From: a virus
IMG/VR virus record: IMGVR_UViG_3300032058_000080
Coordinates: 1-29,152 of that record
DNA length: 29,152 bases
Reading direction: 5' to 3' (one strand)
Position numbers and translations under genes: made by a program. Below the pieces are notes generated by a model. That model was not told where the DNA came from, made no database searches, and saw only the letters and a list, made by a program, of their open reading frames with translations. Position 1 is the first letter of the stretch. Each line of letters starts with the position of its first letter. Shown here piece by piece: positions 3 through 16,676 of the stretch.

Positions 3-1526
3 GCGGTCAAGCTCGGCGCGTGGATACAAGGCATTAATATTGCCTTTGAGACCATGCTTGGCAATGCACAGGCGGCGAAGGTGTTTATTGCCCAGCTGTG
101 GGAGCTCGCCAGGGTTACACCGTTTACGCGCCGCGAGGTTGTTGAGCTTGCCCAGCGATTGCTGGCCTATGGCTTTGCAGTGGAGCAAATACCTAGGCTG
201 ATTACTGATATATCCGACGCCACCTCCGCTCTTGGTGGTGGTACAGAGCTCATGAACCGGATAGCGCTGGCTATCGGGCAGATATATACCAAGGGCAAGC
301 TTGCTGGCGAGGAGATTCGGCAATTGGCGGAAGCCGGTATCCCAGTCAAAATGATATTGGCTAATGCGTTGGGCGTTACCACCGCACAGCTGGAAGACCT
401 CCAAGAGAAGGGTATTGACGCTAACACTGCCCTGAGCGCGCTCCTTGGCTATATCGAAACCCGCTATGGCGGGCTGTCCAGGCGAATGATGAGTACGCTC
501 TCCGGCGCGTGGAGTAACCTAATCGACGCTGTCGAAGGTTTATTAATCCGGCTAGGCGAAAAGGTTGCGCCTAAGCTGGCCAGTGTGGTTCGTGCCATTA
601 CCACGGCGATTGAGTCTTTAGCCAATAGTCCAGCGTTTGAGGCTATTATTACCCGTATTTCCTTATGGTTAGACCCGCGACGCATTATGCGTGTCTTAGG
701 CTATATTGTAGGCGTCACGATTAACGTCGGCCGGGCGCTGGCTAACCTTTTTAAGGTTATTCCGACCAACGTTGTTGGTAACCTGATGCAATTATTTACT
801 TTCATTGCAAACATAGTCGACTGGTCGCTCGAAGCGGCAAAGCGGTTAGGCCAATTCTTGGCGCAAGTTGGTCGAGTGGTCAAAGACCAATGGAGCGCTA
901 TTTTAACAGCGCTGGCAGAAACATTGAGTGTTGTTGCTGATAAGGTAGGCGTAATTATTAGGTTAATCGTTACAGCGCAAGCGTTGCTCATCGGCCTCCA
1001 AATCGGTGCTAAAAAAGGTGTCATTGGTGCAATCATTGGTGCAATCATCGGCGCCGCCGCTGGCTGGTTTGGCCAGAAACTCCTAGGCGACCTATTCAAA
1101 CGCGAATTCCAAGACCTAAAGGCCACGGTGCAAAGCATATGGTCAGGCGCCCAATTACCAGGGTTTCCAACCCTCCCCGCGTGGGGTGAAAAAACAACAA
1201 TTCGTGACCTCTTCGCTCCGAACTACCAGCTTATGAACTGGTTTGAAAGCCTCGTTCCTGAGGTCCAGGACTCTACCGCCGCGCTCCGCGATATAGCGAA
1301 GGCAACACAGGTGACCGCTGAAAATACCGCACCGCTGCGCCGGCTGGCGGACGTCATTGGAGGTGGTCAGGCTGCACAGGAGCTTATACCGCGCTTGGCG
1401 TTCGGTGCACCGGTGGCGCCACGCTATGTGACTGTCCGAATTAAAGCTGACAATAAACATGATGAAGAAGTCGCCTATGCGGCTATCAGGCAACTTGCTG
1501 ACGGGATAGGTGTTTATACGCTATGA
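3..1526 (+). CDS. Tail tape measure protein, C-terminal part (5' truncated)
   Basis: The frame is open from base 3, and the codons before the first ATG (54) already read like the family, so this is the end of a longer gene. The first 150 or so residues match the conserved tape-measure domain: a TPF motif, a 'LLAYGF' helix, 'QIYTKGKLAGEEIRQLAEAG' and a 'GLSRRMMSTLSGAWSNL' segment. A strongly hydrophobic, Gly/Ala/Ile-rich stretch follows around residues 315-345, as expected of a protein threaded through the tail tube and able to insert in the host membrane. The family sets tail length in siphoviruses and myoviruses and is released at DNA ejection. The stop overlaps the next start (ATGA), so translation is coupled to the tail hub gene. 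Confidence 0.9.
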   Translation, partial: AVKLGAWIQGINIAFETMLGNAQAAKVFIAQLWELARVTPFTRREVVELAQRLLAYGFAVEQIPRLITDISDATSALGGGTELMNRIALAIGQIYTKGKLAGEEIRQLAEAGIPVKMILANALGVTTAQLEDLQEKGIDANTALSALLGYIETRYGGLSRRMMSTLSGAWSNLIDAVEGLLIRLGEKVAPKLASVVRAITTAIESLANSPAFEAIITRISLWLDPRRIMRVLGYIVGVTINVGRALANLFKVIPTNVVGNLMQLFTFIANIVDWSLEAAKRLGQFLAQVGRVVKDQWSAILTALAETLSVVADKVGVIIRLIVTAQALLIGLQIGAKKGVIGAIIGAIIGAAAGWFGQKLLGDLFKREFQDLKATVQSIWSGAQLPGFPTLPAWGEKTTIRDLFAPNYQLMNWFESLVPEVQDSTAALRDIAKATQVTAENTAPLRRLADVIGGGQAAQELIPRLAFGAPVAPRYVTVRIKADNKHDEEVAYAAIRQLADGIGVYTL

Positions 1527-3463
1527 ACATTGCATTCAGGCTAGACTGGCTAGGCAGTGGTCGCAACGCTCCGCAGTACTGTGGAGGTGTGTTGTCATTA
1601 AGCGCATTGGTAGACAGGTGCTCCACTTCCAATGTTTATATCGACAAGCATAGCGGCGCGCTAATGCTTAAGCCACAGGCAGAATCGTGGATACCGTTAT
1701 CCGGCTTCCTAGGCGATACAGCGCAGTGTGAGCAGGTCGATTGCGGTGCGGTTAAGTTCATTGTTGTTCATTCCACACCGGCTACGCTCCAAACAGCTAT
1801 GCAGTTCCCTGAGAATTGTGGGCTGTGTATGCTATTGTACACTCCGTCTGTTGTAGGTGTATCCGAACCGCTACTGGACCTAGACGTTGGAAGTATTACT
1901 CTACATTTTTTTACCGACGGACGAGTAACATCTACATATGTTGACCACCGATTTAGCGGTATGCAAAATAATATTGTCCGTCTGTTCTTCTTCCCTTTGG
2001 CTAATAATGTGCTTGCAGTCCGGACCGACAATGAAGGTGTAAACATAATAACAAGTGATGCTGTGCTTCCGGCTTACCAGCTAAAACTTAAGGCATATAC
2101 ACGGCTACGGTTCGCTGTCTCCAGGCTGACTTATCCTCAGAATGGTGTTTTTCTTACGCCGACTTTGACCTTTCCACGCGAGCCGGAGGAGGGGGAGCAT
2201 GTGGCAATCAAAGAAGTTGGCGAGGTCTTCGGCCGTGGTGGCTATGTTCTTACAGCGCGAGCGAATGATGGTTCGTCCTGGGACGGGACGCGCGAATATC
2301 GTATCCGGGCAGATTTATTGAGCTCTGAGGTCCACAGTACCCCTATCCTCCGGCGTGTAACAGTGCTATTAGCCAAAGATTATACTCCTGAGATTCCAGA
2401 TTTGACCGATATATCCGACCTAGTCCGCTCGGCAAGGCTGGTGAATGGTGAAAAGCTAGAACTAGAGTTGTGTCGTTCGTCCGATAACCCGTCCTGGGCT
2501 GATGGACTACACAATAGATTGATATCCGTAGAGATTGATAGCAAGCCGGTCTTCGTGGGGCTAACGGAGGGGGTATCCGCCACCGCGTGGAAGCTGTATA
2601 AGCTTACTGCGCAACCTCTGACGAAGGTATTGGCTGCTCCATGCCTTACAAATAAGCTATGCTTTGATGGTGTATCCCACACAGAGGCTATTAAGCAGTT
2701 ATGCCTATCCACAGGCATGCTTACTGAAGCTGATATTGAGGTCGACGAAGACGATACTAAGCTTCCGGACACGCATAGTGCCGACCAGAATGCTGATAAT
2801 GATAGCGAGCTAACAACTAAGCCGTTCGATACGCCAGAACAGTGGATAAAGCGTATCTGCGAGCAAACCGGATGGAGGTTCCATTTCGGTTATTCCCATT
2901 ATGATGGTCGCCCCGTCCTTAGGTATTATGACCCTTTATCCTTTGACCCGGAGGATGTGCTATATGTCCTTAGCGCTGTCACAGATTCGACCACAGATGG
3001 CAAAATATTTGAACTGTCCTGGGACTACCAAGCTCCAGAAGCCAATATTATTGCGGTTATCGGCAAGAAAGAAGAAGGTACGTACCACGCCGCCGTGTAT
3101 GAAGACAAAGCTTCCATCGACCCCTCATTGCCACCGGAGGAGCGACCGGATAACTGGCTCGGCTATAAGCTCCCGCTAGTCCTAACGTTCGAGTCAGTTT
3201 GCCCAGTGGAGTGGCTCAAAGCATTAGCAGTTCGCCTAGGGGTAGAGGTGTCGCAGGTTCGCCGTGTTGCTACCGTCGAAAGTGACTGGCTGACCAGTAC
3301 CCGCCCGCTGTGGATTAACGATATTGTGGAGCTCCGGGGCTTGGAGCTTGATGAACCACGCTTTAGAGTGGTGGAGGTTGATAGTGTCGAGTTTGTCCGC
3401 CCTAGACCGCGTATCCGGTTCCGGGCAGTTCAGCTAAAGGAGGTGCATAGCATATGGATATAA
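1523..3463 (+). CDS. Putative tail hub / baseplate protein
   Basis: The 646-residue product follows the tape measure gene with an ATGA overlap, the usual place for distal tail or tail-hub proteins. The N-terminal 250 residues are beta-rich and unrecognised. The middle has 'LVRSARLVNGEKLELELCRS' and 'TPEQWIKRICEQTGWRFHFG', patterns seen in phage hub-like proteins that build beta-domains at the tail tip. The C-terminal part ('WINDIVELRGLELDEPRFRV') also resembles hub beta-domains. An acidic linker lies near residues 410-440. No peptidase or lysozyme motif was seen. The role is inferred from position and general pattern; the exact family is not identified. Confidence 0.6.
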   Translation: MNIAFRLDWLGSGRNAPQYCGGVLSLSALVDRCSTSNVYIDKHSGALMLKPQAESWIPLSGFLGDTAQCEQVDCGAVKFIVVHSTPATLQTAMQFPENCGLCMLLYTPSVVGVSEPLLDLDVGSITLHFFTDGRVTSTYVDHRFSGMQNNIVRLFFFPLANNVLAVRTDNEGVNIITSDAVLPAYQLKLKAYTRLRFAVSRLTYPQNGVFLTPTLTFPREPEEGEHVAIKEVGEVFGRGGYVLTARANDGSSWDGTREYRIRADLLSSEVHSTPILRRVTVLLAKDYTPEIPDLTDISDLVRSARLVNGEKLELELCRSSDNPSWADGLHNRLISVEIDSKPVFVGLTEGVSATAWKLYKLTAQPLTKVLAAPCLTNKLCFDGVSHTEAIKQLCLSTGMLTEADIEVDEDDTKLPDTHSADQNADNDSELTTKPFDTPEQWIKRICEQTGWRFHFGYSHYDGRPVLRYYDPLSFDPEDVLYVLSAVTDSTTDGKIFELSWDYQAPEANIIAVIGKKEEGTYHAAVYEDKASIDPSLPPEERPDNWLGYKLPLVLTFESVCPVEWLKALAVRLGVEVSQVRRVATVESDWLTSTRPLWINDIVELRGLELDEPRFRVVEVDSVEFVRPRPRIRFRAVQLKEVHSIWI

Positions 3464-3648
3464 AGACACGCAAAGCACTAACTAGACTTGAGCAGGCTAT
3501 CCGGAGGCCAACTGTCCAATACCCCACAGTAGCTAACCACGGTTTGTTGCTGAGCGCACTAGAGCAGGTTTATCCTGTTCTAGTTGATGGTAACATAGTT
3601 TTCACGCTAGGGGCAACGGGATTAGCCGACGATGTTTTCGTCCCATAA
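3454..3648 (+). CDS. Small tail-cluster protein of unknown function
   Basis: The 64-residue ORF has a strong Shine-Dalgarno site (AAAGGAGGTG) about 9 bases before its ATG and overlaps the upstream gene by 10 bases, so it is very likely translated. The first 20 residues are basic and helical; the rest is neutral and aliphatic. No domain or signal peptide is recognised. Its stop codon lies at the edge of repeat R1, so it is the last gene of the tape-measure transcript. It may be a small tail or chaperone protein, but this is only inferred from place. Confidence 0.6.
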   Translation: MDIKTRKALTRLEQAIRRPTVQYPTVANHGLLLSALEQVYPVLVDGNIVFTLGATGLADDVFVP

Positions 3649-3886
3649 TTCCGCCTTATATATATAGGCGAAGGACACATGCCTTTTCAAAAAAAAATTT
3701 CATTAAAGCTAAATGAGGTCCAATTTTCCCTTGTAAAATAAGGCCAAATCCCATTTAATGAAGGCTTTCGCTTCATTAAATGATTAAATGAGCTGAGCGT
3801 GCTTGTTGTATGGCATTTTCAATTTCCGGAAAATAAAAAATCGGTCGGGTAATATATAAGAGGGAATTTTGTCTGTGGAGTGGAGT
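3646..3886 (+). repeat. Long intergenic repeat R1 (copy 1 of 3), probable transcription punctuation
   Basis: This 240-bp segment recurs at 19311-19552 and 24706-24938 in the same orientation, always before a rightward block. It holds a string of stems: CGCCT/AGGCG just after the upstream stop, an AAGG/CCTT stem followed by TTTTC, TCATT/AATGA, CCTT/AAGG, a perfect 12-bp inverted repeat CATTTAATGAAG (3752-3763 and 3771-3782) and the palindrome TTTCCGGAAA. It ends with a shared GGTCGGGTAATATATAAG block and a GGAGTGGAG segment that serves as ribosome binding site of the 3892 gene. No protein is encoded. A terminator plus phage-specific late promoter is the most likely reading; no good sigma-70 promoter was found inside it. 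Confidence 0.85.
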
Positions 3887-3891
3887 CCTAA

Positions 3892-6800
3892 ATGCATGCA
3901 TATGACAGTGGTGTAGTCAAGCTAAAAGAAAGTTCTCCTGTGAGCTGGGGGGCAGAGGGGACTTGGCGTATCCAATTTGAGGCTATCGATGAGCATTTTA
4001 TTCGGTTCCGGTCTTTTACATCATGGCTAGAGCTTGATGATTCTCCGCTTCTTGAGGCTGGCTTCACACTGCAGTGGAGTGGTCTTCCGACTGGCCACGT
4101 CCTTGCTTATGCATTGCGCTCGGGGGAGGTTTGGCTATACGATTTTACCGCCGGTGCATGGATAGACCGCGTCGATGACTGGACTAATTGCACCGGCCTG
4201 CTAGACGGTGAATATACCGAGCTCCATCCAGCTGAGTATTATTTTGCCACGGTGGTTCTTTTTACTCCGACAGACTTTCCAGATGGTGCAACCGCATTCA
4301 GTAACCCGTTTATCCTTTATTCCCCAAGTTCAGGCTATTCCATATACCACGAACCTTTTTTCCTTGGTGATATCTACGCTCCTCCGCGTGAATTTGATAT
4401 TAGCGGCGAGTACCAAGCTTCCGTAGGTCTCTCCTGTGTGGCCTGGGCGCGGATTAAACAAGAAGTCGGAGATTATGGAGAGTGGATATACTATAATTCC
4501 GTCGATGGCATGGGTGCAACAGAAGGCTTTATCGGGATGTTTGCGTACACAAGTGGCTGGCGCTACAATGATGTTCAAATTGTAACGTTTGACCCACCGA
4601 TTGAGTTTGAGCTTGACATTGAGGATATTCGTGTCTCAGCGCGACAGACCGGGTTCAGCCTTGAATTGCCTCTTGGCGGCCTTGCAACAACAGCTGCAGG
4701 GGCAACGTCTGATACTCCTTTTGAAAGCGTGGAGGTTTTAGGCACTGCGCGCGCAGTGTTTTGTGGCTTGCATCCATGGCTTGAGTTTGGAGTGACCGAA
4801 ACATATATCTCTGATGATTATGAGACGCGCGCGAGTATTGATACCGATGGTGTAATGACTGTCAGCGCTAATACCGACATACTTGTCGGTATGCCGTATG
4901 CTGTTACCTTTAATTCCATAATATGGCCGTTCCGCTACCGCTATAAAGGGTACGCTAAACATGGAGAGACTACTAACATCGCTGGCGTGTACGTTGAAGA
5001 TTTGTTTGAGAATGTTTGGCCGATTAGCGAAAACAGCCCCGTCTATAACTGTCCTGGCCGATATTTCGGCGAGGTGCTTGGAACACAGTATATAGGAGGA
5101 GTCCAGGAGGTTAATCGTGTCTTTGCGCTTAAGGCGGTCAATCCAGATGACGGCAACCTTCCGCGTAACTATAAGCGTGTCCAATTGCTATTGCGTAAGC
5201 GTTCCCCGTTTCCGGAGGTTAGTGATGTTTCTTGGTCCTTCCCGAATAGATTTCTATTCGATGATTTTTCAGAAGGCTGGTCGGCGCATAATTGTACCAT
5301 CCAGCGCATTGATGGCTATTTGCAAGTGACTCCGACCGGCAGCGGCGCTTACATTGAAAAGACATTTACTCCAGACAGTCCGACTCCGGAGGAGTTGCGC
5401 TATTGGTGCGGCCACAGGTGGGCTGAGCTAGTGGCCACTCCGGTAGAGGGTATTAAGCTTGAATTTGTCCGCAGTAGCTCGTTGGTCTTGGACCAAGTTG
5501 CGCCAGGTGTTTTCGATACAACTGCCGGGCGGTCCGGAGTGACGGACACCGAAGAGTCTTATATTGACCAGGCACTTCCTGCCGCTGGGCATTTAGATAT
5601 TTACGGCCAGTACATTTCGGATGAGTCTCCCGACCTGTCTTGGAGCTGGGGTGTCGGGCTCATTAAGAAGCTCCGCGTACATGTTCCAACAACAACAAAG
5701 CTATACGGCCTATACGGCCGCACTAGGGAGGAGCATAATATCCGCCTATCGTGGAGGCATGGCTTTGCCCAAACGTTTTATGCTGGTACATATATAGGCA
5801 ACGTAGACCATGAGCGCTATTTGCACCGGCTAGGCGCATTGTTCGTCGATGGTCGCATTGCTACGGAGGTTCCGGCATATTTGTATTATTCTACTCCTAA
5901 CGCTGAAGTGTGGGACTTGTACACGGTAGCTGAGGCGGTCCATGAGCGTGAAGTCCCCCCCAGCGTGTGGGAGTGGACTTTGGCCGAGTATGACCCTAGC
6001 TGGGAGGTTAGCGGTCATATGTGGAGTTACCTTGAGCAGGTGCTCTATTGCCCGTTTACCGCACCGGCATGGTTTCTTCATGTTAATAAGTTTGTTGAAG
6101 GTTCGCCGTTAGAAGTCATGCCGCGCGTTGACCGTCTGTATTTTGAGTCTCCAGTAATTTCCGCGGAAAGTGGAGTTTTGACGCTTTATTACGAGTACCT
6201 AGGCCAACCGCAAGTGACTGGCGAACTGCTTGAAGGTGGCTTGGCTCCGCTGGATGCTGGTAAAGATTATTACAGCTACCAGTGGCGGAGGGCGGAGTCC
6301 ACAGCGTGGACTGATGATATAACCGACAAGCTCGGTATCCCGCTAACGCCACCGCTGTGGAATACAGGGGAGCTTCGCTTCTGGGAACATGTCGCAGGTG
6401 GGCTTAATATCCGCCCCGGTGTTATGCGCCGCGTTGCTATCCAGGATAAGGGAGCGCTAGCAGGTGGTATTGGTCTAGCTGGCTCGCGTTTTTCTGCGAC
6501 CGTCTACCTATCGACAGCCGATAGCCTAAAGCGATATAATGCAGTTGGGTTAGGGTTTCGGTCTGCTTCCGCTCGTGATAATGTCGATGATACAGCGCTT
6601 GCACAGCTGAACGGTGTGCTATATGAGGTGTGCCGGAAGGACCGGACGTTATATTTGCACTTGACCACGGACGGTGGCCGGACGTGGAGCGTTCCGCAAA
6701 CTATAGCTACGGAGGTGTTGTTCATGGATATTGCCTTCAGTATGACCGCAGCGTCTGGAGTGATAGCATACCTTACCGCCAACGGTGTGGCCGCGCAGCG

Positions 6801-6978
6801 TGTTACGCTTGCCGGTGCTCCACAAGGGAGTGCTGTCCAGGTTGTTAGTGGGAGCTTCTCAGATGTTGCTATAACCACTAATCCACATAACGATTTCTTT
6901 GTCCTTGCAGTCCAGCAGCCTGATGGTACGCTCTTACGATATACAAGCCCCGACGGGCTGGACTGGCAGGAGGTGTAG
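3892..6978 (+). CDS. Large tail adhesin / receptor-binding-type protein with Asp-box motifs
   Basis: The 1028-residue product is rich in Trp, Tyr and beta-strand patterns, lies between the tail hub and lysis genes, and is the first gene after repeat R1. The C-terminal 120 residues carry an Asp-box-like motif (TTDGGRTWS, near residue 924) and a second, degenerate one (TSPDGLDWQ, near 1018), as in sialidase-like beta-propellers and other carbohydrate-binding phage proteins. The catalytic Arg triad of true sialidases cannot be assigned, so binding rather than cleavage is the safer reading. The ATG has GGAGTGGAG about 8 bases upstream, supplied by the repeat. The gene likely encodes host recognition or a tail-tip structural protein; the family is not identified. 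Confidence 0.6.
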   Translation: MHAYDSGVVKLKESSPVSWGAEGTWRIQFEAIDEHFIRFRSFTSWLELDDSPLLEAGFTLQWSGLPTGHVLAYALRSGEVWLYDFTAGAWIDRVDDWTNCTGLLDGEYTELHPAEYYFATVVLFTPTDFPDGATAFSNPFILYSPSSGYSIYHEPFFLGDIYAPPREFDISGEYQASVGLSCVAWARIKQEVGDYGEWIYYNSVDGMGATEGFIGMFAYTSGWRYNDVQIVTFDPPIEFELDIEDIRVSARQTGFSLELPLGGLATTAAGATSDTPFESVEVLGTARAVFCGLHPWLEFGVTETYISDDYETRASIDTDGVMTVSANTDILVGMPYAVTFNSIIWPFRYRYKGYAKHGETTNIAGVYVEDLFENVWPISENSPVYNCPGRYFGEVLGTQYIGGVQEVNRVFALKAVNPDDGNLPRNYKRVQLLLRKRSPFPEVSDVSWSFPNRFLFDDFSEGWSAHNCTIQRIDGYLQVTPTGSGAYIEKTFTPDSPTPEELRYWCGHRWAELVATPVEGIKLEFVRSSSLVLDQVAPGVFDTTAGRSGVTDTEESYIDQALPAAGHLDIYGQYISDESPDLSWSWGVGLIKKLRVHVPTTTKLYGLYGRTREEHNIRLSWRHGFAQTFYAGTYIGNVDHERYLHRLGALFVDGRIATEVPAYLYYSTPNAEVWDLYTVAEAVHEREVPPSVWEWTLAEYDPSWEVSGHMWSYLEQVLYCPFTAPAWFLHVNKFVEGSPLEVMPRVDRLYFESPVISAESGVLTLYYEYLGQPQVTGELLEGGLAPLDAGKDYYSYQWRRAESTAWTDDITDKLGIPLTPPLWNTGELRFWEHVAGGLNIRPGVMRRVAIQDKGALAGGIGLAGSRFSATVYLSTADSLKRYNAVGLGFRSASARDNVDDTALAQLNGVLYEVCRKDRTLYLHLTTDGGRTWSVPQTIATEVLFMDIAFSMTAASGVIAYLTANGVAAQRVTLAGAPQGSAVQVVSGSFSDVAITTNPHNDFFVLAVQQPDGTLLRYTSPDGLDWQEV

Positions 6979-6981
6979 CTT

Positions 6982-7437
6982 ATGAAGGTTAATTTTGACG
7001 TGTTTAATCCGCTCCAACCAGGGACAGGGTTGATGTTCCGCCAAGCATTGAATTCGGTGCTGGAGTACCTCCATGATGTTGCTCAGCAGCTAGAGCTTGC
7101 TCTAGAAGTCCTGTCCACGTGGTGGTCCGATGGCGAATTGCCCGACCAGGCAGGTAAGATAGCTATTGACACTACTGATAACCGCGTCATTGTTCGAAGT
7201 GGTTACCAGTGTATTATTGACGGCGTTCCGGTCGAGCTTCGGCAAAATATCTGGCAAGGCTATAATACCGGCGAGGTTAATTATATTCATATTAAGCTGT
7301 CTGATACCGGTATTCCTAGCCTAATAGTGTCCACAAGTCCGCCAACGGAGGGTAACCTTATTGCAACGATTTCCGAGCTTGAGGAGCTGAATACCAATCC
7401 AGAAGGCAAACCATATGCAGCATTAAGGAGTTCCTAG
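6982..7437 (+). CDS. Tail-associated protein of unknown function
   Basis: The 151-residue product starts 3 bases after the adhesin stop, with AGGAGG overlapping that gene's end. The N-terminal 45 residues are predicted helical ('RQALNSVLEYLHDVAQQLELALEVL'); the remainder is beta-rich with a 'YQCIIDGVPVELRQNIW' segment. The pattern resembles small baseplate or fibre-attachment proteins that pair a helix with a beta-sandwich. No named domain is recognised. Tight spacing to its neighbours puts it in one transcript with the adhesin and the lysis genes. Confidence 0.6.
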   Translation: MKVNFDVFNPLQPGTGLMFRQALNSVLEYLHDVAQQLELALEVLSTWWSDGELPDQAGKIAIDTTDNRVIVRSGYQCIIDGVPVELRQNIWQGYNTGEVNYIHIKLSDTGIPSLIVSTSPPTEGNLIATISELEELNTNPEGKPYAALRSS

Positions 7438-7438
7438 T

Positions 7439-7705
7439 ATGGATATCTCTTTGCTCAAAGATTTAACCGCAAGTGGAGCTGTTATCATTGTTGTTGCATT
7501 GTTCCTGCGCGCAATCGAAAAGTGGCGCATCGAGTGGAGTTCAATCATGGCTGATGTTACCGAGCGTCAAATTACAGCATTACACCAAATAGTCCAAGAG
7601 CTTAACGAGACGAGCAAACAGCTCCGCGAAACGTCGGAGGTGCTTTGTAAAGCGCTCCAAAGCATAACAAAGGCAGGTGTAGGCAATGATTCGCATAGCT
7701 CTTGA
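7439..7705 (+). CDS. Holin-like single-span membrane protein (BhlA/UviB-like)
   Basis: The 88-residue product has one hydrophobic segment near residues 8-24 ('LTASGAVIIVVALFLRAIEKW') followed by a charged, coiled-coil-prone helix rich in Glu, Gln, Lys and Thr. This layout, and the position directly before the amidase, match BhlA/UviB-type small holins of Gram-positive phages. Such proteins permeabilise the membrane so that the endolysin can reach the wall. AAGGAG precedes the ATG by 8 bases. The 3' end overlaps the amidase start by 20 bases, so both should be made together. Assignment rests on topology and context, not on a motif. Confidence 0.65.
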   Translation: MDISLLKDLTASGAVIIVVALFLRAIEKWRIEWSSIMADVTERQITALHQIVQELNETSKQLRETSEVLCKALQSITKAGVGNDSHSS

Positions 7706-8267
7706 CCCGGGCCACGGAGGAAAAGACCCCGGGGCAACGTATAAGGGCATTACAGAAGCTAAGCTTGTATTTAATGAGCGCCAAGAGGATGGTGTTACCG
7801 TTGCCGATGGCCTAACAAACCGCCTGGCGCATTATTTGCGTGAACGTGGCCACAGCGTGTTATTTACCCGCTCTGCCGACGAGAACCCTCCTAAGCGTGT
7901 CCGGGCCGAACGGGCCATTAGCTGGGGCGCGCAAATGTATATAAGCGTGCATGTTAATGCCGGCGGCGGCTCGGGCTCGGAAGTCTGGATTAACCCCGAC
8001 TGCCGCTTTGTAGAAGGAAGTAAGGCTATTGCTAATGTGGCGCTAGAAGTGGCGCAAAGGTTGGGCGTCCGGTCCAGAGGTATTAAACTTACCACAGATA
8101 ACGCGCGAGCTAGAAACGTCATTGGCAGGCTCCGCAATAGAATGCCTGCTGTGCTAATTGAGGTTGCTTTCATTGATAACGATTTGGAGCTCCTCCTCTT
8201 AACAAACAAAATTTGGCGTGACGCGTGGGCATATAATTTAGCTAAGCGTTTGGCGCGCATAAAATAA
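7686..8267 (+). CDS. N-acetylmuramoyl-L-alanine amidase (Amidase_3), endolysin
   Basis: The 193-residue protein is a complete Amidase_3 catalytic domain. Visible zinc ligands are H10 (DPGHGG), E24 and H89 (SVHVNA), and the catalytic Glu is E159 (LIEVAFIDN). It cleaves the bond between N-acetylmuramic acid and L-alanine of peptidoglycan. There is no signal peptide and no wall-binding domain, so it fits a compact endolysin released through the holin-like protein encoded just upstream. An AGGTGTAGG segment precedes the ATG. It is the last rightward gene before the convergent leftward operon. Confidence 0.93.
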   Translation: MIRIALDPGHGGKDPGATYKGITEAKLVFNERQEDGVTVADGLTNRLAHYLRERGHSVLFTRSADENPPKRVRAERAISWGAQMYISVHVNAGGGSGSEVWINPDCRFVEGSKAIANVALEVAQRLGVRSRGIKLTTDNARARNVIGRLRNRMPAVLIEVAFIDNDLELLLLTNKIWRDAWAYNLAKRLARIK

Positions 8268-8276
8268 GCCGTGCAT

Positions 8277-8306
8277 AAAAAAGCCGTGATGTTCGTTCAT
8301 CACGGC
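8277..8306 (-). terminator. Rho-independent terminator of the leftward operon and small RNA
   Basis: A perfect 9-bp stem (GCCGTGATG, 8283-8291, with CATCACGGC, 8298-8306) and a 6-base loop are followed on the minus strand by six T (8282-8277). On the plus strand the hairpin is followed by A, so it is not a proper terminator for the amidase transcript. It stops leftward transcription before it runs antisense into the lysis genes. Confidence 0.88.
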
Positions 8307-8340
8307 AAAAAAACAAGGAGGAGGAACGGAAAGGAGGTAC
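8277..8340 (-). ncRNA. Predicted small RNA with anti-Shine-Dalgarno arm
   Basis: Between a consensus leftward promoter (8347-8374) and a terminator hairpin (8283-8306) lies room for an RNA of about 64 nt and no protein. On the minus strand it begins near 8340 with GTACCTCCTTTCC, then GTTCCTCCTCCTTG, then seven U, the 9-bp hairpin and six U. ACCTCCTTTC equals the 3' tail of Firmicutes-type 16S rRNA. Both CU-rich segments are complementary to the ribosome binding sites of many leftward genes, for example 11 bases at the 11722 start. It could therefore block or compete at Shine-Dalgarno sites of phage or host mRNAs. Expression and function are inferred; it might also arise by processing from the helicase transcript. 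Confidence 0.65.
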
Positions 8341-8346
8341 GTGTTT

Positions 8347-8374
8347 ATTATACAGTTTTTCCTGAATTTGTCAA
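8347..8374 (-). promoter_or_regulatory. Consensus sigma-70-type promoter for the small RNA
   Basis: On the minus strand TTGACA (8374-8369) and TATAAT (8352-8347) are both perfect, separated by 16 bases. The -35 box overlaps the stop codon of the helicase gene. Start of transcription is expected near 8340, about 57 bases before the terminator stem ends; no ORF fits. Confidence 0.8.
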
Positions 8375-9951
8375 GAGCAATATAGTTTCCCTCCTGGCGC
8401 GCATAGATATAGCCGTTTCCTCGCTCTAGTTATTCCAACGTAGTAAATCCTCAGTATATCGTCCCTCCTCTCCTGTGTATTAAAATCCACGTAGAATGAT
8501 GGTGATAAGTCGGGGTACAGGATTACATTATCTGCCTCACCGCCCTTTACGCTGTGGATAGTGCCGACCACTAAGAGTGGTGTTTGTTCCAGCGCTCTAA
8601 ATCCGCGCTTTTTAAAAACCTTGACAGGATATTCGTATCCATTTTTCCTCGTCGCCAGGAGTGACTGCATAAGCCAATCCTCGTCGCCGGAGAACACGGC
8701 CGGGAAGTCGTCCCGGAATACTTTGAGCAATAAGTCAATGCTTACCTCCTCATGTGGCTTCAGCTTTGCCAATCGCTCAATCTCTGTTTTAGCTCCGCGT
8801 GGCAAGAGCTTCGCTGATAAGTCCTGCGCCCAGTAGTAAAGCTCTGAATATGTCCACGGGCGTGCGTGGTCGGTACAGTCCTCGCGTATGAGTAGATAAT
8901 TCCGGAGTGCCATCGCCCCATGACCGAATAGTGGATTCCAGTCTCCACGCGTCCGCCGCCAAGGGTTGTGGAAGGGTAGTCCGTATTTCCGCAGTACTGC
9001 AATTGTCGGCTCCAAGAACATTGAGCAGAAAGCCAAAATAGCCACAGTTTCGCCGTTGCTCAAATGCCTTTCGATTATTTCCAGAAGTGCCTCCGGATAC
9101 CGCCACTGTACGTTGATTTTTAGCACTTCCCCTTCCTCTTCCCGTGGATAGTACTCTTTAGGCTCCCTGTGCTGAATTCTATCAGTAACAGATTTGGCTA
9201 GCCTGTGCACCGCGCGTGGCACTCTGTAAGATTGCCGTAAAACCTTCTTTTGTTCCTCCGGGAGCGGTGGCTGGAGCATAATATCGTAAGAGCTCCCCGC
9301 CCACGAATACAAACATTGGTCATCGTCTCCGGCCAGGAAAAGCCGGCTTGTATGTCCTGCCCAACTCCTTACCAAGCTAATTGATAGCCGGGACAAGTCC
9401 TGTGCCTCGTCGATGATTAGTACTTGAGCTTTTTTAGGCTTAGCGGATTCCCGGAGTGCCAGCTCCAGCATGTCCGTGAAGTCGATTCCTCCATTAGCCG
9501 TTTTCCATTCCTCCCAGCGTTCCGCAAACTGTGTAACTGATTGAGGCCAGAAGTGGCGGGGAGTCTGCCTGGCTCTCAAAATATTGTATGCCGAAAATAG
9601 CTTGTCTCCAGTGGTCTCCTTCTGGTATTCCTCAAAAGATTCATCAATCGTCGCCTTGGCTCCAGAAAGTGCGTAGACAGGATAACATTGATTCCAGTCT
9701 GCAATGGCATTAGCGGTCTCAAGCAATGGAGGTCGGCCAAGTGCCTGATAAGCCAGGGAGTGGAGTGTCCCCACATTGTCCTCCGGCATAAGACCCTTTA
9801 TCCGTGATGCAATCTCTCTAGCAGCTGTCCGGGTTAGGGAAGCGATGAAAATTGTATCTCCTGACGTTCCATTATTTAGCTCTTTCTCCACTTGCCTTTT
9901 TAAAAACGTTGTTTTTCCCGTTCCGGGAGGCCCGAAGATTCTATATTCCAT
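8371..9951 (-). CDS. Superfamily 1 (UvrD/Rep-like) DNA helicase
   Basis: The 526-residue protein shows the SF1A set in order: Walker A GPPGTGKTT (7-15), motif Ia-type 'SLTRTAAREI', 'GTLHSLAYQAL', Walker B DEAQD (181-185), motif III GDDDQCLYSWAG (208-219), motif IV-like 'SYRVP', motif V 'TIHSVKGGEADNVIL' and motif VI 'YYVGITRARKRLYL'. It is shorter than PcrA/UvrD (about 720 residues), so accessory subdomains are reduced, as in many phage helicases. It should unwind DNA 3' to 5' during replication or recombination. GGGAGGAGG precedes the ATG. The gene overlaps the primase gene by 11 bases and is last in the leftward operon. Confidence 0.93.
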   Translation of the reverse strand: MEYRIFGPPGTGKTTFLKRQVEKELNNGTSGDTIFIASLTRTAAREIASRIKGLMPEDNVGTLHSLAYQALGRPPLLETANAIADWNQCYPVYALSGAKATIDESFEEYQKETTGDKLFSAYNILRARQTPRHFWPQSVTQFAERWEEWKTANGGIDFTDMLELALRESAKPKKAQVLIIDEAQDLSRLSISLVRSWAGHTSRLFLAGDDDQCLYSWAGSSYDIMLQPPLPEEQKKVLRQSYRVPRAVHRLAKSVTDRIQHREPKEYYPREEEGEVLKINVQWRYPEALLEIIERHLSNGETVAILAFCSMFLEPTIAVLRKYGLPFHNPWRRTRGDWNPLFGHGAMALRNYLLIREDCTDHARPWTYSELYYWAQDLSAKLLPRGAKTEIERLAKLKPHEEVSIDLLLKVFRDDFPAVFSGDEDWLMQSLLATRKNGYEYPVKVFKKRGFRALEQTPLLVVGTIHSVKGGEADNVILYPDLSPSFYVDFNTQERRDDILRIYYVGITRARKRLYLCAPGGKLYCS

Positions 9952-11497
9952 TATTGACCTCCTCCCACGGGATAGCCCACGCTAGCTTAGAAGTCTTAGC
10001 CACGTAAATAGTCTGAGCATAAGCTCCTGCCGCTCGGAGCATTATTGCTAATTGCCGCACACTGATTGTTTCTCCCAGTGCCCGAGTGGTGTAACAGGCC
10101 AGTGACCGCAGGATAATATAGACCGTACCGCCTTTTATGAATGGTGCATCGTTCATAAGCGCTTCCTGGTATTCCGATTCTTCGGCCACAGGGTTATCCC
10201 GCAGGTATCGAGAAACCAACTCCCGAATTTGCTCTTCTCCGGCCTCGCCTACGTCTAAGGCTTCGCAGGAGTCCAGGAGTAGCTGAGCTAAGACTTGCCA
10301 GCGGCTTTTGGGGATTTTAGGGATTAGAATATTTGCGCTCGCCGCAATGACGTCCCGGAAGCTAGCTTCGTTAATGAGCTTGCTAACCTTTAGTTGTGAT
10401 ATCGCTTCCGTTACTCCGTCATGCTCGATTTCCAGCCGGTAAGTCGGCTCTCCATACGTCGAGAATTTGACAACCTTCGCTATCCGGAATTGCCGCTGTG
10501 GTATGAGTGCCGCAAGTTGAGCGTTCACAATATCCAGTGCGCTCTGCTTATCGCTTACCTGTAATGGTGGCGGGTCGCTTGGGTTTTCTCTTGCCTTCGC
10601 TATTGTCCGCTCGTAATATTGAGCTGTCTTGATATCGCCTTTCCAGCGCCGGCGGTGTGCCACGAGTAAATCGCAAATTTGTTGGTCCGTCCATCCCGCC
10701 CTTGCTGCCCTGACTGCCAGGCTTAAGTCATATCCACTAAGGCTTTGGTCAATCAAATCACTCCGCTGGTGCTCGAATGTGTCCAGTACAGTTTTATCCG
10801 CAGCAATTAGTTGTTGCCACAGCTCAATCGGAGGAGTCCCTTCAGGGTTTAGGGTAATCGTTGCTTTTTTATCCGCATAAATAGAATGTTGAACGTTGAT
10901 AGGCAAAATTGATGTTGCGTCTAAGATGTCTTCTATGCTGTAAAGGTGTCCTGTCTCCTGCTCTATCATCACGGCTGTGCCCGCCTTGCTGTTAATTGTG
11001 CCGGGCAAGCGGAGTACACGCATCAAATCGTGGGTGCTGTCTATTGCCCAACCTTTCTCTTTAGCAATATGCTGTAGAGCAGCCTGGAGTGTCCTCACTG
11101 CTAGTCCCGCCCGCTCCAAGTCAAACTCCGGAGCTGAGAGCTGCCAGTAGGCATGGACGCCGCCGCCAGTGTTAATGACGAGTGATGGCTCAAGCATGAA
11201 TTTGCCAAGAATTTCGTCATAGACAGCCTTATGGCTAGGGGGGAGGGTTGGCTTCTTGTGGTAAGCGGTCGCTACGTCGATGTCTGCCCACAGGGCTGGG
11301 ACACAGAGGAGTGTGTCCCTGCTCCCGCGCGAATATGAGTTGCCAGGTGTTTTGTGTACCGCTACGCCAAAATAGACGTCCTTTAGTCCCCTGTACTTTG
11401 AGCTTAATTCGGAGAAGCTTTTAATGTCGCTCCACTCAGAGCGCTTACTTTGCCATATGTAGGTATATCCTTCCTCAACCAGGCTGAAAATCTCCAT
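9941..11497 (-). CDS. AEP-superfamily primase (RepB/PrimPol-like)
   Basis: The 518-residue protein carries archaeo-eukaryotic primase motifs: the metal-binding DxD (D72 and D74 in LWADIDV), the motif II His (H115 in NTGGGVHAYWQL) and a basic motif III region with DLMRVLRLPGTINSK (near 157-171). The segment at about 255-310 ('YDLSLAVRAARAGWTDQQICDLLVAHRR') resembles the primase C-terminal domain of plasmid and phage primases. No helicase ATPase motifs were found in the remainder, so an SF1 or SNF2 partner would do the unwinding. It should make primers for phage DNA synthesis. GGGAGGG precedes the ATG; the 3' end overlaps the helicase gene. Confidence 0.88.
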   Translation of the reverse strand: MEIFSLVEEGYTYIWQSKRSEWSDIKSFSELSSKYRGLKDVYFGVAVHKTPGNSYSRGSRDTLLCVPALWADIDVATAYHKKPTLPPSHKAVYDEILGKFMLEPSLVINTGGGVHAYWQLSAPEFDLERAGLAVRTLQAALQHIAKEKGWAIDSTHDLMRVLRLPGTINSKAGTAVMIEQETGHLYSIEDILDATSILPINVQHSIYADKKATITLNPEGTPPIELWQQLIAADKTVLDTFEHQRSDLIDQSLSGYDLSLAVRAARAGWTDQQICDLLVAHRRRWKGDIKTAQYYERTIAKARENPSDPPPLQVSDKQSALDIVNAQLAALIPQRQFRIAKVVKFSTYGEPTYRLEIEHDGVTEAISQLKVSKLINEASFRDVIAASANILIPKIPKSRWQVLAQLLLDSCEALDVGEAGEEQIRELVSRYLRDNPVAEESEYQEALMNDAPFIKGGTVYIILRSLACYTTRALGETISVRQLAIMLRAAGAYAQTIYVAKTSKLAWAIPWEEVNNGI

Positions 11498-11518
11498 CGT
11501 GCATTCCCTCCCGGAAGT

Positions 11519-11722
11519 CTATTTTCCGAAAGCTTGTTCGCGTGTTACCTCGCAAACAGGTAGTTCCTCATAGTAGACTTGAGCAGATGTCCGGTCAATC
11601 TCAGCTATTTGCACACACTCTGTTACCACTATAAAATATCTATTGTCATAGGTCTTGAGTAGGAAGATATTACTAGTGTCCGAGTCCTCGAGTGACAAAT
11701 CATGCGCTAGTAAAATAGACAT
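11519..11722 (-). CDS. Small unknown protein of the replication operon
   Basis: The 67-residue ORF is acidic and predicted to be beta-strand rich, with no recognised domain. It has a very strong ribosome binding site (AAAGGAGGTAC, 7 bases from the ATG) that is fully complementary over 11 bases to the 5' end of the small RNA predicted at 8277-8340. It ends 21 bases before the primase start and starts after a strong hairpin (11765-11784), so its translation may be set separately from the gene upstream. Confidence 0.7.
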   Translation of the reverse strand: MSILLAHDLSLEDSDTSNIFLLKTYDNRYFIVVTECVQIAEIDRTSAQVYYEELPVCEVTREQAFGK

Positions 11723-11764
11723 TGTTGTACCTCCTTTTTTTTTGGATGTTTGAAGTGAGAGAGT

Positions 11765-11784
11765 GGGGGCGGGTAACCGCCCCC
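11765..11784 (-). terminator. Strong GC hairpin between replication genes
   Basis: GGGGGCGG and CCGCCCCC form a perfect 8-bp stem with a 4-base loop just after the stop of the 11789 gene. On the minus strand it is followed by CACTCTCT, the same octamer that follows hairpins at 14161, 15716 and 16677, and then by A rather than T. It may be a partial terminator or an mRNA-end stabiliser; a standard U-tract is missing. Confidence 0.55.
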
Positions 11785-11788
11785 AGTG

Positions 11789-12472
11789 TTAGCCAATGTA
11801 GTCTTCGGCCGTGATTTCCCGGCCGCTAATGAGAGCTCCGACCACGTTGCCGTAGTTCCGGAGCTCATCTGTGATATCCTGCGGTACTTCGCCAACGAGC
11901 TTGAAGGTTGCCACGGGATATGTGATTCCCTGAGCGTTCCGGGCTTGTGCAATCCCTAGCTCGGTTATCACAGACCAGATAGGTTTGCCGGCGGAGGCCA
12001 GGCGCAAGAAGTACTTCCTGCAAGGGCCAACGGACGTGGGGGGCAGGATAACGATTTTGGGGATAAGCTCCCCCTCCTGGAGGAGTAATAGCTGCCGCAT
12101 TAGCTTGCATGCTTGGCCGCGGCCACCGTCCGAACCGAATTGTGAATATTGACACATGGTGCAATCCCCTCCGGGAGTGCCAACGCCGACCTTGCTATCC
12201 CGGCTGAAACAGTCCGGTGCGCTAGTGCCAGAGCTCATGTCCGAGCTCCAGTACGCTCGGCAGTCCCTCCAGTGGACTATGACACCGGTAAGTGTGGGGG
12301 CATTGGCCAAGCTTCCTTCTAACGTGGGTGCTTGCCATCCGCCTCCCGAAAGCCGTACTCGGTCTAAGTCAAATTCGGACACTGCCCCGCCAGTGTTGGC
12401 AATAAGCGTGTCAATATTCACTTTCGCTATCCAGGTTTCCTTCTCCTTCTGCGCCAGCTTATTGCTTGTCAT
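11789..12472 (-). CDS. Conserved phage-type Cys-rich protein of the replication module
   Basis: The start chosen is the ATG at 12472 (227 residues), because the upstream in-frame GTG lies inside the AAGGAGGTG ribosome binding site. A four-Cys cluster (C88, C104, C107, C122) with the pattern 'GTPGGDCTMCQYSQFGSD' looks like a zinc-binding loop. The C-terminal part is beta/alpha with 'PKIVILPPTSVGPCRKYFLRL'. I recall the same Cys-loop plus 'LPPTS' arrangement in unnamed proteins beside replication genes of other phages, perhaps with a ssDNA-binding role, but I cannot name the family. The gene overlaps the upstream one by 14 bases. Confidence 0.7.
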   Translation of the reverse strand: MTSNKLAQKEKETWIAKVNIDTLIANTGGAVSEFDLDRVRLSGGGWQAPTLEGSLANAPTLTGVIVHWRDCRAYWSSDMSSGTSAPDCFSRDSKVGVGTPGGDCTMCQYSQFGSDGGRGQACKLMRQLLLLQEGELIPKIVILPPTSVGPCRKYFLRLASAGKPIWSVITELGIAQARNAQGITYPVATFKLVGEVPQDITDELRNYGNVVGALISGREITAEDYIG

Positions 12473-12998
12473 TGTAATCACCTCCTTCCATTATACTGAT
12501 TATTCTGGCGATTGTCGCCAGTTCCTTGCTCAAAGTGCTCTTTGCTCTGTAAAGAGCACGGGCAAATGAGTAGACGTCCAAGGTTACAGTGATACCATCG
12601 ACGTCTATTGTTGCTCCTCCCGCTACCAAGTGAAGCGAAAAGTCGAGTGTTTGAAGAGTCGCCTCTCCTCCGCTAATTAAGTGAGCATCAATTGCCGCAG
12701 AGGCAAGAATACAGAGGATTGCCTCCTCTATAGTGCCAGTCCTCAGACACCAGAGCTCTTGCGCTCTGGCCAGTAAGCCTTCGGAGGCGCAGAACTCCCC
12801 GTCCGAGCTGATTTTTAGTGTAACAGGTGCTACGCTTAAGTATTGGCAAGTGCCAACGTATTTTGCATGACGTAGTTCGGACGCCGACACGCCGGGCTCA
12901 AGTAATATTAAGTCGACCTCACGAATGAGCTTCCTCACAAAGTCCCTGTCGACGATTACTCCGTCTCCGTCTCCTCTTCCTATCCTTAAGGTTACCAT
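12459..12998 (-). CDS. Unknown protein of the replication operon
   Basis: The 179-residue product has no recognised domain. It begins with a basic and acidic N-terminus, followed by mixed beta/alpha segments, an Ala/Leu-rich middle ('EEAILCILASAAIDAHLI') and a helical C-terminus ('ALYRAKSTLSKELATIARIISIM'). AAAGGAGGAAG lies 6 bases before the ATG. It overlaps the Cys-rich gene and follows the small HTH gene by 18 bases, so it is co-transcribed. A role in replication or its control is inferred from location only. Confidence 0.6.
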   Translation of the reverse strand: MVTLRIGRGDGDGVIVDRDFVRKLIREVDLILLEPGVSASELRHAKYVGTCQYLSVAPVTLKISSDGEFCASEGLLARAQELWCLRTGTIEEAILCILASAAIDAHLISGGEATLQTLDFSLHLVAGGATIDVDGITVTLDVYSFARALYRAKSTLSKELATIARIISIMEGGDYNDKQ

Positions 12999-13016
12999 TG
13001 TTCTTCCTCCTTTATT

Positions 13017-13211
13017 TTATTTCTTATATTCTGCGTTTGTCTCTCCGGCGAGTATCTTCTCCAGATACTCGCGGAGAATGTAGGTCCTGCCGCCTATCTT
13101 CAACGCTGGCAGGACTCCACGCTTAATAAGGAGTCTCACTCCTGGCGCACTCCTGCCAAGCATTCTGGCCGTCTCTTCGACGGTGCACCAGCGTTCTTGT
13201 AGGTTATTCAT
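13017..13211 (-). CDS. Small excisionase-like helix-turn-helix protein
   Basis: The 64-residue protein is an HTH_17/MerR-like winged DNA-binding domain: 'WCTVEETARMLGRSAPGVRLLIKRGVLPALKIGGRTYILREYLEKIL'. The first helix pair and the recognition helix come before the wing with the typical K-I-G-G-R-x-Y turn. Such proteins act as excisionases or small regulators. No integrase gene is seen in this window, so transcription or replication control is more likely than excision here. GGGGGTG precedes the ATG, and the gene overlaps its upstream neighbour by 8 bases. Confidence 0.85.
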   Translation of the reverse strand: MNNLQERWCTVEETARMLGRSAPGVRLLIKRGVLPALKIGGRTYILREYLEKILAGETNAEYKK

Positions 13212-13590
13212 TTATGCTCACCCCCTTTGCTACTATGCTGTAACGCTCCGTGATGTTGACATACGGCTCTAGCTCCGGAGGGATATTCTCCTCACGGGCT
13301 AGAGCCGAAAGCTTGCTGCTGTGGATGCTTAGTAGGTATTCAAGTCCTGTGCTTTGGAGGATTCCAAGCACAGTGCTAACGTCGGCGTCGCTGCGGAGCG
13401 AAGCCCACAGCTGCCGGCGGAGGTAGACGGTTTCGCCCGTGTCAGTGTGGATGCTTTGGAGTCCTTTGCGCTCGAATTCCTCGAGCAGCTTTTGTTCTAG
13501 GGCACTTAGTTGTTCCTTGACTTTCGCTAGCTGGCTCTCTAGCCTCTTTTTCCTTTGGGTAAGCTTGACGAATTGCTTGACGCTTCTCAT
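13204..13590 (-). CDS. Coiled-coil phage protein of unknown function
   Basis: The 128-residue product starts with a long basic and acidic helix (about residues 5-42) predicted to form a coiled coil ('RKKRLESQLAKVKEQLSALE'). A conserved-looking strand pair follows: 'GLQSIHTDTGETVYLRRQLWA'. I recall this helix plus 'TVYLRRQLWA' layout in unnamed phage proteins, loosely like Siphovirus Gp157. GAGGAGGAGG precedes the ATG by about 4 bases. It lies first after the zinc-motif gene and is probably in the same transcript from the promoter at 14087. Confidence 0.65.
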   Translation of the reverse strand: MRSVKQFVKLTQRKKRLESQLAKVKEQLSALEQKLLEEFERKGLQSIHTDTGETVYLRRQLWASLRSDADVSTVLGILQSTGLEYLLSIHSSKLSALAREENIPPELEPYVNITERYSIVAKGVSINE

Positions 13591-13620
13591 GTCCTCCTCC
13601 TCGTATGGGGGGTATGCCCT

Positions 13621-14046
13621 TTAGGCATCTGCCGCCAGGGCTTTTTTGTATTCCGGCTGGAGTTTCAAGTCGAGCATATTATCATGCTCTATCCACCATG
13701 CCGCCTGGGTCTTGGTGGATGCAGCTGCCAGAACGGCCCGCCGACATCGCTCGATGTCGGTTTCGCTGGTCCCACGCTCTTTCCAATTGTCGAGTTTGGT
13801 AAAAACGCGGTTTATCCACTCCAGTCTGATGCTATTCGCCCACGCCACTTGCTTCTCAGTCCCCGTTAGCTCAGGTAGCCCGAGCTCTTGAGTGAGTGCC
13901 TTTTCTTCTCTCCTCTTTTCTTCAATGTAGCAGGCTTTGCAGAGCTTGCTAGCCTCATACTTGAGTTGAGATTCCCTAGAAGTGTACGAACCGAATAGCG
14001 CTATCCTTTCCTCATGTCCACATGACCTCTTTACTGTGTATTTCAT
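13621..14046 (-). CDS. Zinc-motif protein, paralogue A
   Basis: The 141-residue protein has C9-x-H11 (SCGHEER) and C36-x2-C39 (LCKACYIEE), a likely zinc site, followed by 'LPELTGTEKQVAWANSIR'. The 'LTGxEKQ(I/V)AWAxxIR' motif is a feature I know from uncharacterised bacterial and phage proteins. A close paralogue sits at 16718-17143 (roughly two-thirds identical by eye, same length, same KALAADA end). It has its own strong promoter and a ribosome binding site ACAAGGAGGAGAAC. The function is unknown; a nucleic-acid-binding or host-factor-binding role is possible. It starts the replication transcript. Confidence 0.75.
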   Translation of the reverse strand: MKYTVKRSCGHEERIALFGSYTSRESQLKYEASKLCKACYIEEKRREEKALTQELGLPELTGTEKQVAWANSIRLEWINRVFTKLDNWKERGTSETDIERCRRAVLAAASTKTQAAWWIEHDNMLDLKLQPEYKKALAADA

Positions 14047-14086
14047 TGTTCTCCTCCTTGTGTGGTGTTTGTTGTCTTACATTATA

Positions 14087-14151
14087 ATTATAGTACATGC
14101 TTTGCTGTTTGTCAATCGGTTTTGCAAAAATTTTTAAAAAATTTTTTTTTA
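14087..14151 (-). promoter_or_regulatory. Strong promoter P1 with A/T upstream element
   Basis: Minus strand: TTGACA (14115-14110), 17-base spacer, TATAAT (14092-14087), with a run of A5/T5-type tracts (14125-14150) directly upstream of the -35 box like an UP element. Transcription should start near 14080, giving a leader of about 34 nt for the 14046 gene and the operon down to the helicase. Confidence 0.88.
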
Positions 14152-14160
14152 GAGAGTGGG

Positions 14161-14188
14161 GGAGAGGAGGTTTGAGTCCCTCCGCTCC
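14161..14188 (-). terminator. Hairpin before P1
   Basis: GGAG-A-GGAGG pairs with CCTCC-G-CTCC with one central mismatch, just after the stop of the 14197 gene. It is followed on the minus strand by CACTCTCT and an A/T tract instead of an immediate U-run. It belongs to a set of hairpins at equivalent positions whose arms differ but still pair. Confidence 0.55.
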
Positions 14189-14196
14189 TCCTTGCT

Positions 14197-14520
14197 TTAG
14201 CGTGTCCGGAAGCGAGCATAGCGGTCAAAGAGGCGGATTGCAGCTTCGGCCACAGCGCCGCTTCCGCTGTACAGAAAAGCAACGTATCTGATAACCGGTT
14301 CGCTATCCCGAAGCAAATCTAGGTATCTCCCCTCCCCATCCGGGAGGCGCACAGTCAGACAGTACGGACATTCTGCGCTCAAGGCCAGCTCCCCGTCCCG
14401 CGTTTGGAAGCCGACTGACTCCGCAGGGTATGGAGCATCGCTTCTGTTGGCACACTCGTGTGTGAACGAGCAGTCGAAGATTTCCAGAGCATCCCTGACG
14501 ATTTCCTTTGCTATTGACAT
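14197..14520 (-). CDS. Unknown accessory protein, paralogue of the 15264 gene
   Basis: The 107-residue protein aligns by eye over its whole length with the 111-residue product of 15264-15599: an N-terminal 'IVRDALEIFD' helix, a short variable beta-region, 'PVIRYVAFLYSGSGAVAEAA' and a basic end. It has three Cys (including CPYC) not kept in the paralogue. AAAAGGAGGAGGAG precedes the ATG. It is 19 bases downstream of the 14540 gene and most likely shares the P2 transcript. No known domain is recognised; context suggests an early accessory role. Confidence 0.65.
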   Translation of the reverse strand: MSIAKEIVRDALEIFDCSFTHECANRSDAPYPAESVGFQTRDGELALSAECPYCLTVRLPDGEGRYLDLLRDSEPVIRYVAFLYSGSGAVAEAAIRLFDRYARFRTR

Positions 14521-14539
14521 TGTTCTCCTCCTCCTTTTC

Positions 14540-15220
14540 TCAGTCTTTAATAGTTATAATAAAAGTATGTGTTAGTAGTGTCTCTCTGTTCAGAACCTGC
14601 TCCTTGTAGAGTAAGCCAGCAGGTACCCCGTCTCGGGTATAGCCTAATGCCAATGTGGTGTCCGGGCTCTTAAGCTCTGGCCGGTAGCGAAGTACCGGCA
14701 TGCCTTCCCAGCTCAACAGTTCATAGGCTGCCCAGGCTCCATGCCAGCCTCCAAGCACTGGAATTGTGAGCTCTGCATGAATCTGGTACGGGTTGAGAAT
14801 TAAAAACTGATGCGTATAGTCAAGCGTGATGGTGTCGATAATCGCCTCGTTTGCCGTTGTGGAGAGCTTGACAATGTGCGATGGCTTGGCATAGTCAAGC
14901 AGCAACTTCCAGGGGCTTGAAACAATCGCCCATTCGTCCATTGTAAGCTTATGCCAGGCAATGAGCTCATTATCATAAGCCGTTGCCTGGATTTCCCGCC
15001 CACGAAGTGTGTGCATCCTCCGGCATGCGTGGTCGCGCGGCGTGAGGAGCGTAACTCCTCCTAACAACTCCCTGAAAGCAATGTAGGACCGGGACGTAAG
15101 AAAACGAATCATCATTCCCTTGTCCTTTTTAAAGAACTCCACGCCACGTGCGCCGACCATATGTGTATGGCGTGGTATGCAGATTAGTGCAGTGTCGCGA
15201 GTCGCTTTAATAAGGTACAT
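14540..15220 (-). CDS. Unknown accessory protein (226 aa)
   Basis: The start is set at the ATG at 15220, which has CAAAGGAGGAGG 5 bases upstream; a longer in-frame reading to 15262 would run through a hairpin. The product is beta-rich, without membrane segments, and contains 'PVLGGWHGAWAAYELLSWEG' and 'GMPVLRYRPELKSP'. It may be a distant relative of the 263-residue product of 15767-16558 (compare 'YELLSWEGMPVLRY' with 'YDLVLTHKGSPVLEL'), but the match is weak. No named family is recognised. It is co-transcribed with the 15264 and 14197 genes. Confidence 0.6.
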   Translation of the reverse strand: MYLIKATRDTALICIPRHTHMVGARGVEFFKKDKGMMIRFLTSRSYIAFRELLGGVTLLTPRDHACRRMHTLRGREIQATAYDNELIAWHKLTMDEWAIVSSPWKLLLDYAKPSHIVKLSTTANEAIIDTITLDYTHQFLILNPYQIHAELTIPVLGGWHGAWAAYELLSWEGMPVLRYRPELKSPDTTLALGYTRDGVPAGLLYKEQVLNRETLLTHTFIITIKD

Positions 15221-15232
15221 TTTTCCTCCTCC

Positions 15233-15708: not shown

Positions 15709-15715
15709 AGAGAGT

Positions 15716-16666: not shown

Positions 16667-16676
16667 AGAGAGTGGA

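Follow-up and report, generated by a model that had tools for sequence, protein, structure and literature searches.

A candidate short non-coding RNA with an anti-Shine-Dalgarno arm at the end of the early gene block of an uncultivated phage

A 103-bp gap between two converging genes of an uncultivated phage carries what appears to be a self-contained non-coding transcription unit with an accessible anti-Shine-Dalgarno (anti-SD) arm, a reading that is supported as far as sequence can go. The phage is represented by a 29,152-bp virus record, which was analyzed over its whole length and is called the window here. The explanation that we tentatively favor, possible rather than probable, is that a short non-coding RNA is made from a consensus promoter and that its two anti-SD seeds would cover the SDs of the phage's own early genes, together with similar host SDs, while late mRNAs would be largely spared. 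The arm seems best described less as a copy of the 16S rRNA tail than as an antisense of the phage's own early ribosome binding sites (RBSs). Most likely, the candidate is a small RNA, or the 3'UTR end of the early operon, that would occlude strong SDs in trans.

The promoter–terminator unit and its setting

On the minus strand, a TTGACA −35 hexamer (8369–8374), which overlaps the stop codon of a UvrD-like helicase gene (8373–8371), is separated by 16 nt from a TATAAT −10 hexamer (8347–8352). As the earlier note on this DNA had claimed, both boxes are perfect, and the promoter matches the consensus at 12/12 positions. Judging from the distance to the −10 hexamer, transcription would start at 8342–8340 (minus), giving a predicted RNA of ~64–66 nt that ends in an intrinsic terminator (8277–8306, minus). 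The terminator consists of a 9-bp stem (8306–8283) with G-C in six pairs and a loop of 6, directly followed by TTTTTT (8282–8277), in agreement with the ~64 nt, the 9-bp hairpin and the U-run described earlier. A 7-U run (8307–8313, minus) lies immediately before the hairpin. When a promoter of at least 11/12 with a terminator no more than 140 nt downstream was searched for, one was found in the real window, namely the candidate unit, and none in 400 Markov-shuffled windows, which contain on average 0.34 promoters of at least 11/12.

The earlier statement that the RNA carries no ORF also stood, as no convincing reading frame was found on the RNA strand of the predicted RNA. On the plus strand, a GTG frame of 52 codons (8271–8429) overlaps the unit; it has neither an SD nor a PHROGs match. 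A plus-strand gene behind the RBS-like stretch was considered and rejected, the only frame there being a 14-codon GTG frame 3 nt past GGAGG.

The upstream neighbor of the unit is the UvrD-like helicase gene (8371–9951, minus), the last gene of the leftward operon, and the converging neighbor is an Amidase_3 endolysin gene (7686–8267, plus). The leftward genes, from 19206 down to 8371, encode SNF2-like and UvrD-like helicases, a primase-like protein and small unknown proteins, and the rightward genes, from 19449 to the end and from 54 to 8267, include those for terminase, portal, tape measure and amidase. We call the leftward block “early” and the rightward block “late”, labels inferred from gene content. 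SDs are strong on leftward genes and mostly weaker on rightward genes. Genes like those for queuine tRNA-ribosyltransferase and QueE are clustered with one for GTP cyclohydrolase at 20945–23155 (plus), which suggests 7-deazaguanine modification of phage DNA or tRNA, and two adjoining genes at 19868–21006 (plus) match the same ParB-like families and are likely a tandem duplication.

The early leftward block, whose strong SDs are the proposed targets (8371–19275, minus), has six further promoters matching the consensus at 11 or 12 of 12 positions, with first hexamers at 19275, 17650, 17221, 16630, 15675 and 14115. Four of the six (14115, 15675, 16630 and 17221) lie in a repeated module, in which a GGAGG/CCTCC hairpin is followed by CCACTCTCT or CCACTCCCT, A/T tracts, TTGACAAACAGCAA, and TATAAT or TATACT; the module ends with a leader of the type GTAAGACAACA...ACACAAGGAGGA(G) and then ATG. 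Of this module, the promoter at 17650 has only the A/T tract and the sequence around the −35 hexamer. The early genes at 14046–17221 (minus) take the form of repeated cassettes, in which differing small genes each have their own consensus promoter and a near-identical leader and RBS. The four GGAGG/CCTCC hairpins (14120–14200, 15690–15770, 16640–16720 and 17235–17305, minus), each just 5' of a repeated early promoter, are strong (predicted folds of −22.6 to −25.1 kcal/mol) and differ in their stems, and they are not of the classical terminator type.

The terminator of the candidate also ends the early leftward operon, and the arm is at the same time the 3'UTR of that operon. The small RNA that had been called autonomous does have its own promoter–terminator unit, but for this reason an independent start is likely rather than proven. 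Because of this double role of the arm, processing of the long mRNA could release the candidate RNA even without its own promoter.

The arm and its fit to early ribosome binding sites

The predicted RNA folds only as the terminator hairpin (−15.9 kcal/mol, z −4.6), and its 5' half is predicted to be unstructured, with an unpaired probability of at least 0.94 for the arm bases. The arm contains two anti-SD segments on the minus strand, each with CCUCC: segment 1, GUACCUCCUUUCC (8328–8340), with ACCUCCUUUC at 8338–8329, and segment 2, GUUCCUCCUCCUUGU (8313–8327), with the second CU-rich segment that had been noticed earlier in the 5' arm, CCUCCUCCUU, at 8324–8315. Stretches of 36 nt containing CCTCC twice account for 0.26% of the real sequence vs 0.02% of the shuffled.

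The CCUCC core is widespread in bacteria generally, and the 16S resemblance of the arm therefore does not single out Firmicutes, to whose 16S rRNA tail a sequence within the arm had been declared identical. Such a likeness is expected, since an RNA able to pair with SDs has to look like the 16S tail. Segment 1 has 9–10 nt in common with the tail; segment 2 has no 16S counterpart and fits the early leaders. The S. aureus 16S segment GGAUCACCUCCUUU, as printed in PMC13009471, contains ACCUCCUUU.

The antisense of the arm is AAACAAGGAGGAGGAACGGAAAGGAGGTACGT, and 9 of the 14 leftward RBSs have at least 10 consecutive bases complementary to the arm. Since any pyrimidine tract binds any SD, the control arms were built as antisense to pairs of strong SDs from other phages. 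The mean longest match to the early RBSs was 9.29 for the arm and 7.2 for the control arms, and 0/2000 control arms matched the early genes as well, also with the repeated modules collapsed to one or removed (here and below, several control choices were tried successively, and the counts are indications, not formal probabilities). The mean duplex energy with the arm was −22.5 kcal/mol for leftward and −14.8 kcal/mol for rightward genes; the late genes, with their weaker SDs, bind the arm less. By energy, 0, 3 and 7 of 500 control arms were as good as the arm, as were 12/500 of the strictest controls, which were drawn from only 14 sequences. Of arms shuffled with the two CCUCC cores kept, 1/300 was as good. 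The reversed arm binds with an energy equal to that of the arm, so that judging specificity by energy alone was rejected and the specificity claim rests on exact matching.

The two segments each prefer a different RBS flavor of the same phage. Segment 1 favors the AAAGGAGGU type (−18.5 and −20.3 kcal/mol) and fits best the RBSs of the genes starting at 11722 and 17598. Segment 2 favors ACAAGGAGGAG-type sites (the AAGGAGGAG type; −20.7 to −23.9 kcal/mol), with its best fit to the ACAAGGAGGA(G)-type RBSs of the genes starting at 17143, 16558, 15599, 14046 and 13590. Some of the strongest predicted arm pairings fall inside genes. The promoter, the terminator, the unstructured arm and the complementarity above controls are properties of the sequence itself.

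Proposed action and alternatives

In the mechanism that we propose, host RNA polymerase would make the short non-coding RNA from the consensus promoter located where the early block ends, and the single-stranded 5' arm would present its two anti-SD seeds. The seeds would base-pair with the early phage mRNAs at their strong, stereotyped SDs, and also with similar host SDs; the pairing would keep ribosomes off the early mRNAs, turning the early genes down and largely sparing the late mRNAs with weaker SDs. We infer that the RNA is transcribed, pairs with its targets in the cell and represses them, and that this serves the passage from early to late genes. A complication for an early-to-late switch is that the candidate promoter belongs to the early consensus type, so that the RNA and its targets would be produced at the same time. 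The decoy tail for SDs envisaged in the earlier note keeps its accessible anti-SD arm in this mechanism, but an antisense to the phage's own early RBSs, in two flavors, would describe that arm better than a copied 16S tail. The direct interference with ribosomes that was also suggested is unsupported: the partners of the arm would be SDs rather than the 16S tail.

A more specific version, which we regard as rather improbable, is that one short RNA, with a seed per flavor, would serve specifically as the complement of the early RBS code of this phage, so that strong-SD early genes would be turned down as a class and translation would pass to the weak-SD late genes. If true, a whole gene class would be switched simply, at translation, by a shared strong RBS and one RNA against it, and matching anti-SD RNAs would be predicted in other phages that have blocks of strong-SD and of weak-SD genes, where they could be searched for.

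We consider it unlikely that the early operon simply has its 3'UTR and terminator here, with a weak or idle promoter and a CU tract that acts from the mRNA 3' end, after processing, or not at all. In favor of this reading, no other good terminator follows the leftward block, and the arm is situated after the last stop codon and before this terminator. Against it, chance would rarely put a 12/12 promoter at precisely this place, and the shuffled windows contained no comparable promoter–terminator unit. A relic is a quite unlikely but serious rival, since the early RBSs match one another about as well (9.02) as the arm matches them (9.29). An early-gene leader inserted in reverse would have left the RBS-like stretch on the plus strand, and the RNA would be made with functionless CU segments. 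Indeed, the plus strand of the arm resembles an early leader, which we count against our preferred explanation, and its ACAAGGAGGAGGAACG is nearly the same as ACAAGGAGGAACG, the leader of the gene starting at 15599. Against a relic, two different RBS flavors adjoin here, and no promoter, hairpin or gene start of the module occurs beside them.

The location of the unit between converging blocks, directed at the amidase gene, could also point to a boundary element, whose promoter would fire against late transcription from the amidase side; the RNA would be a by-product, or read-through antisense to the amidase would delay lysis. We find this decidedly unlikely, as the strong terminator halts the RNA short of the amidase gene and the CU segments are left unexplained. 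Generic anti-SD seeds and a promoter that is strong by consensus would suit an RNA that covers host SDs and shuts off host translation, but the early SDs of the phage itself are targets no worse than the strong SDs of other phages, and such a host-directed role seems highly improbable.

Related elements and known systems

Blastn with 1.4 kb found no relative among phage records, blastn of the 111-bp unit against plasmids gave only one weak 30-nt match, and the exact core of the unit was absent from IMG/VR. Searches for relatives of the helicase, amidase and terminase yielded none close enough for judging conservation of the locus. None of ten helicase relatives inspected had a promoter/anti-SD unit behind the helicase, none of nine records scanned had the promoter–CCTCC pattern, and the four matches to the early-promoter pattern all lacked the module (0/4).

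A search of IMG/VR for a promoter followed by CCTCCTTTC gave 43 loci vs 4 for one control 9-mer. Leader hairpins and apparent SDs of opposite-strand genes make up most of the 43. Only L014 (with its copy in L013) and L048 look like promoter–anti-SD–terminator units, so that a broad class of this kind is not shown. In L014 (7962–8060, plus) and L048 (minus, near 1588–1651), promoter, CCTCCTTTC and intrinsic terminator are present, the last within ~30 nt, and in L014 an exonuclease-like gene of 525 codons overlaps at its end with the promoter, parallel to the helicase-gene overlap in the window.

Phage contigs also contain a leader element directly behind a consensus promoter, in which a long stem closes a pyrimidine-rich loop of ~22–25 nt with an invariant CCTCCTTTC and an SD and a start codon come next (L007, L008, L009, L010, L011, L017, L019, L032, L038, L041, L042 and L049). 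It precedes two unrelated genes, of 254–255 aa and about 56 aa. The stem varies over three groups with compensating changes (GGTGGTGGGC/GCTCACCACC, GGTAGCTGGC/GTCAGCTACC and GGTAGTAGGC/GCCTACTACC); this covariation was read by eye, and the automatic consensus fold missed the stem because the alignment did not place the 3' arms in register. No Rfam family matched L007, L008 or L011, the representatives that were scanned. The element is unrelated to the window and shows that an exposed anti-SD loop is kept by phages elsewhere.

That chromosomal sRNAs use anti-SD seeds and that phage RNAs act on phage mRNA, c4 by blocking an RBS, is established. A search of the open-access literature yielded no description of a phage RNA that acts as a general anti-SD, and a multi-target anti-RBS RNA against a phage's own early genes was likewise not found there. 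RoxS/RsaE and FsrA of Firmicutes pair with SDs through several single-stranded C-rich seeds and block translation (PMC10433868), in line with the earlier note, which says that sRNAs with C-rich loops block ribosome binding in Firmicutes. The candidate arm is predicted to have single-stranded C-rich seeds complementary to SDs as well, whereas RoxS, RsaE and FsrA are chromosomal, have metabolic targets and carry C-run seeds in another fold; the candidate does not belong to their families, as no Rfam family reached its gathering score anywhere in the window.

The alpha-r14 / NfeR1 sRNAs of alpha-rhizobia silence mRNAs at the RBS through repeated exposed anti-SD motifs, CCUCCUCCC, and in NfeR1 the identical motif is unpaired in each of three hairpins (PMC10746234). 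The candidate similarly exposes more than one anti-SD motif in a single RNA, but it stands outside this group in having a linear arm, two different segments and one hairpin, the terminator. Hfq-binding sRNAs have a 3' module of an internal U-rich run, a terminator hairpin and a U tail with a reported minimum of 7 (PMC5558911); the candidate has 7 U before the hairpin and a tail of 6 U vs that minimum. In Gram-positives, Hfq is not generally needed by characterized sRNAs (PMC10433868).

Short phage RNAs acting on phage mRNAs include lambda OOP, P22 sar and P1/P7 c4, of which c4 pairs around an RBS and OOP is 77 nt long (PMC12197685), about the length of the candidate RNA. The candidate is not a cis-antisense RNA of the OOP kind, since it would end at ~8277, short of the opposite-strand amidase gene (stop 8267). 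For each of OOP, sar and c4 one main phage target is described, whereas the candidate would hit many early RBSs in trans.
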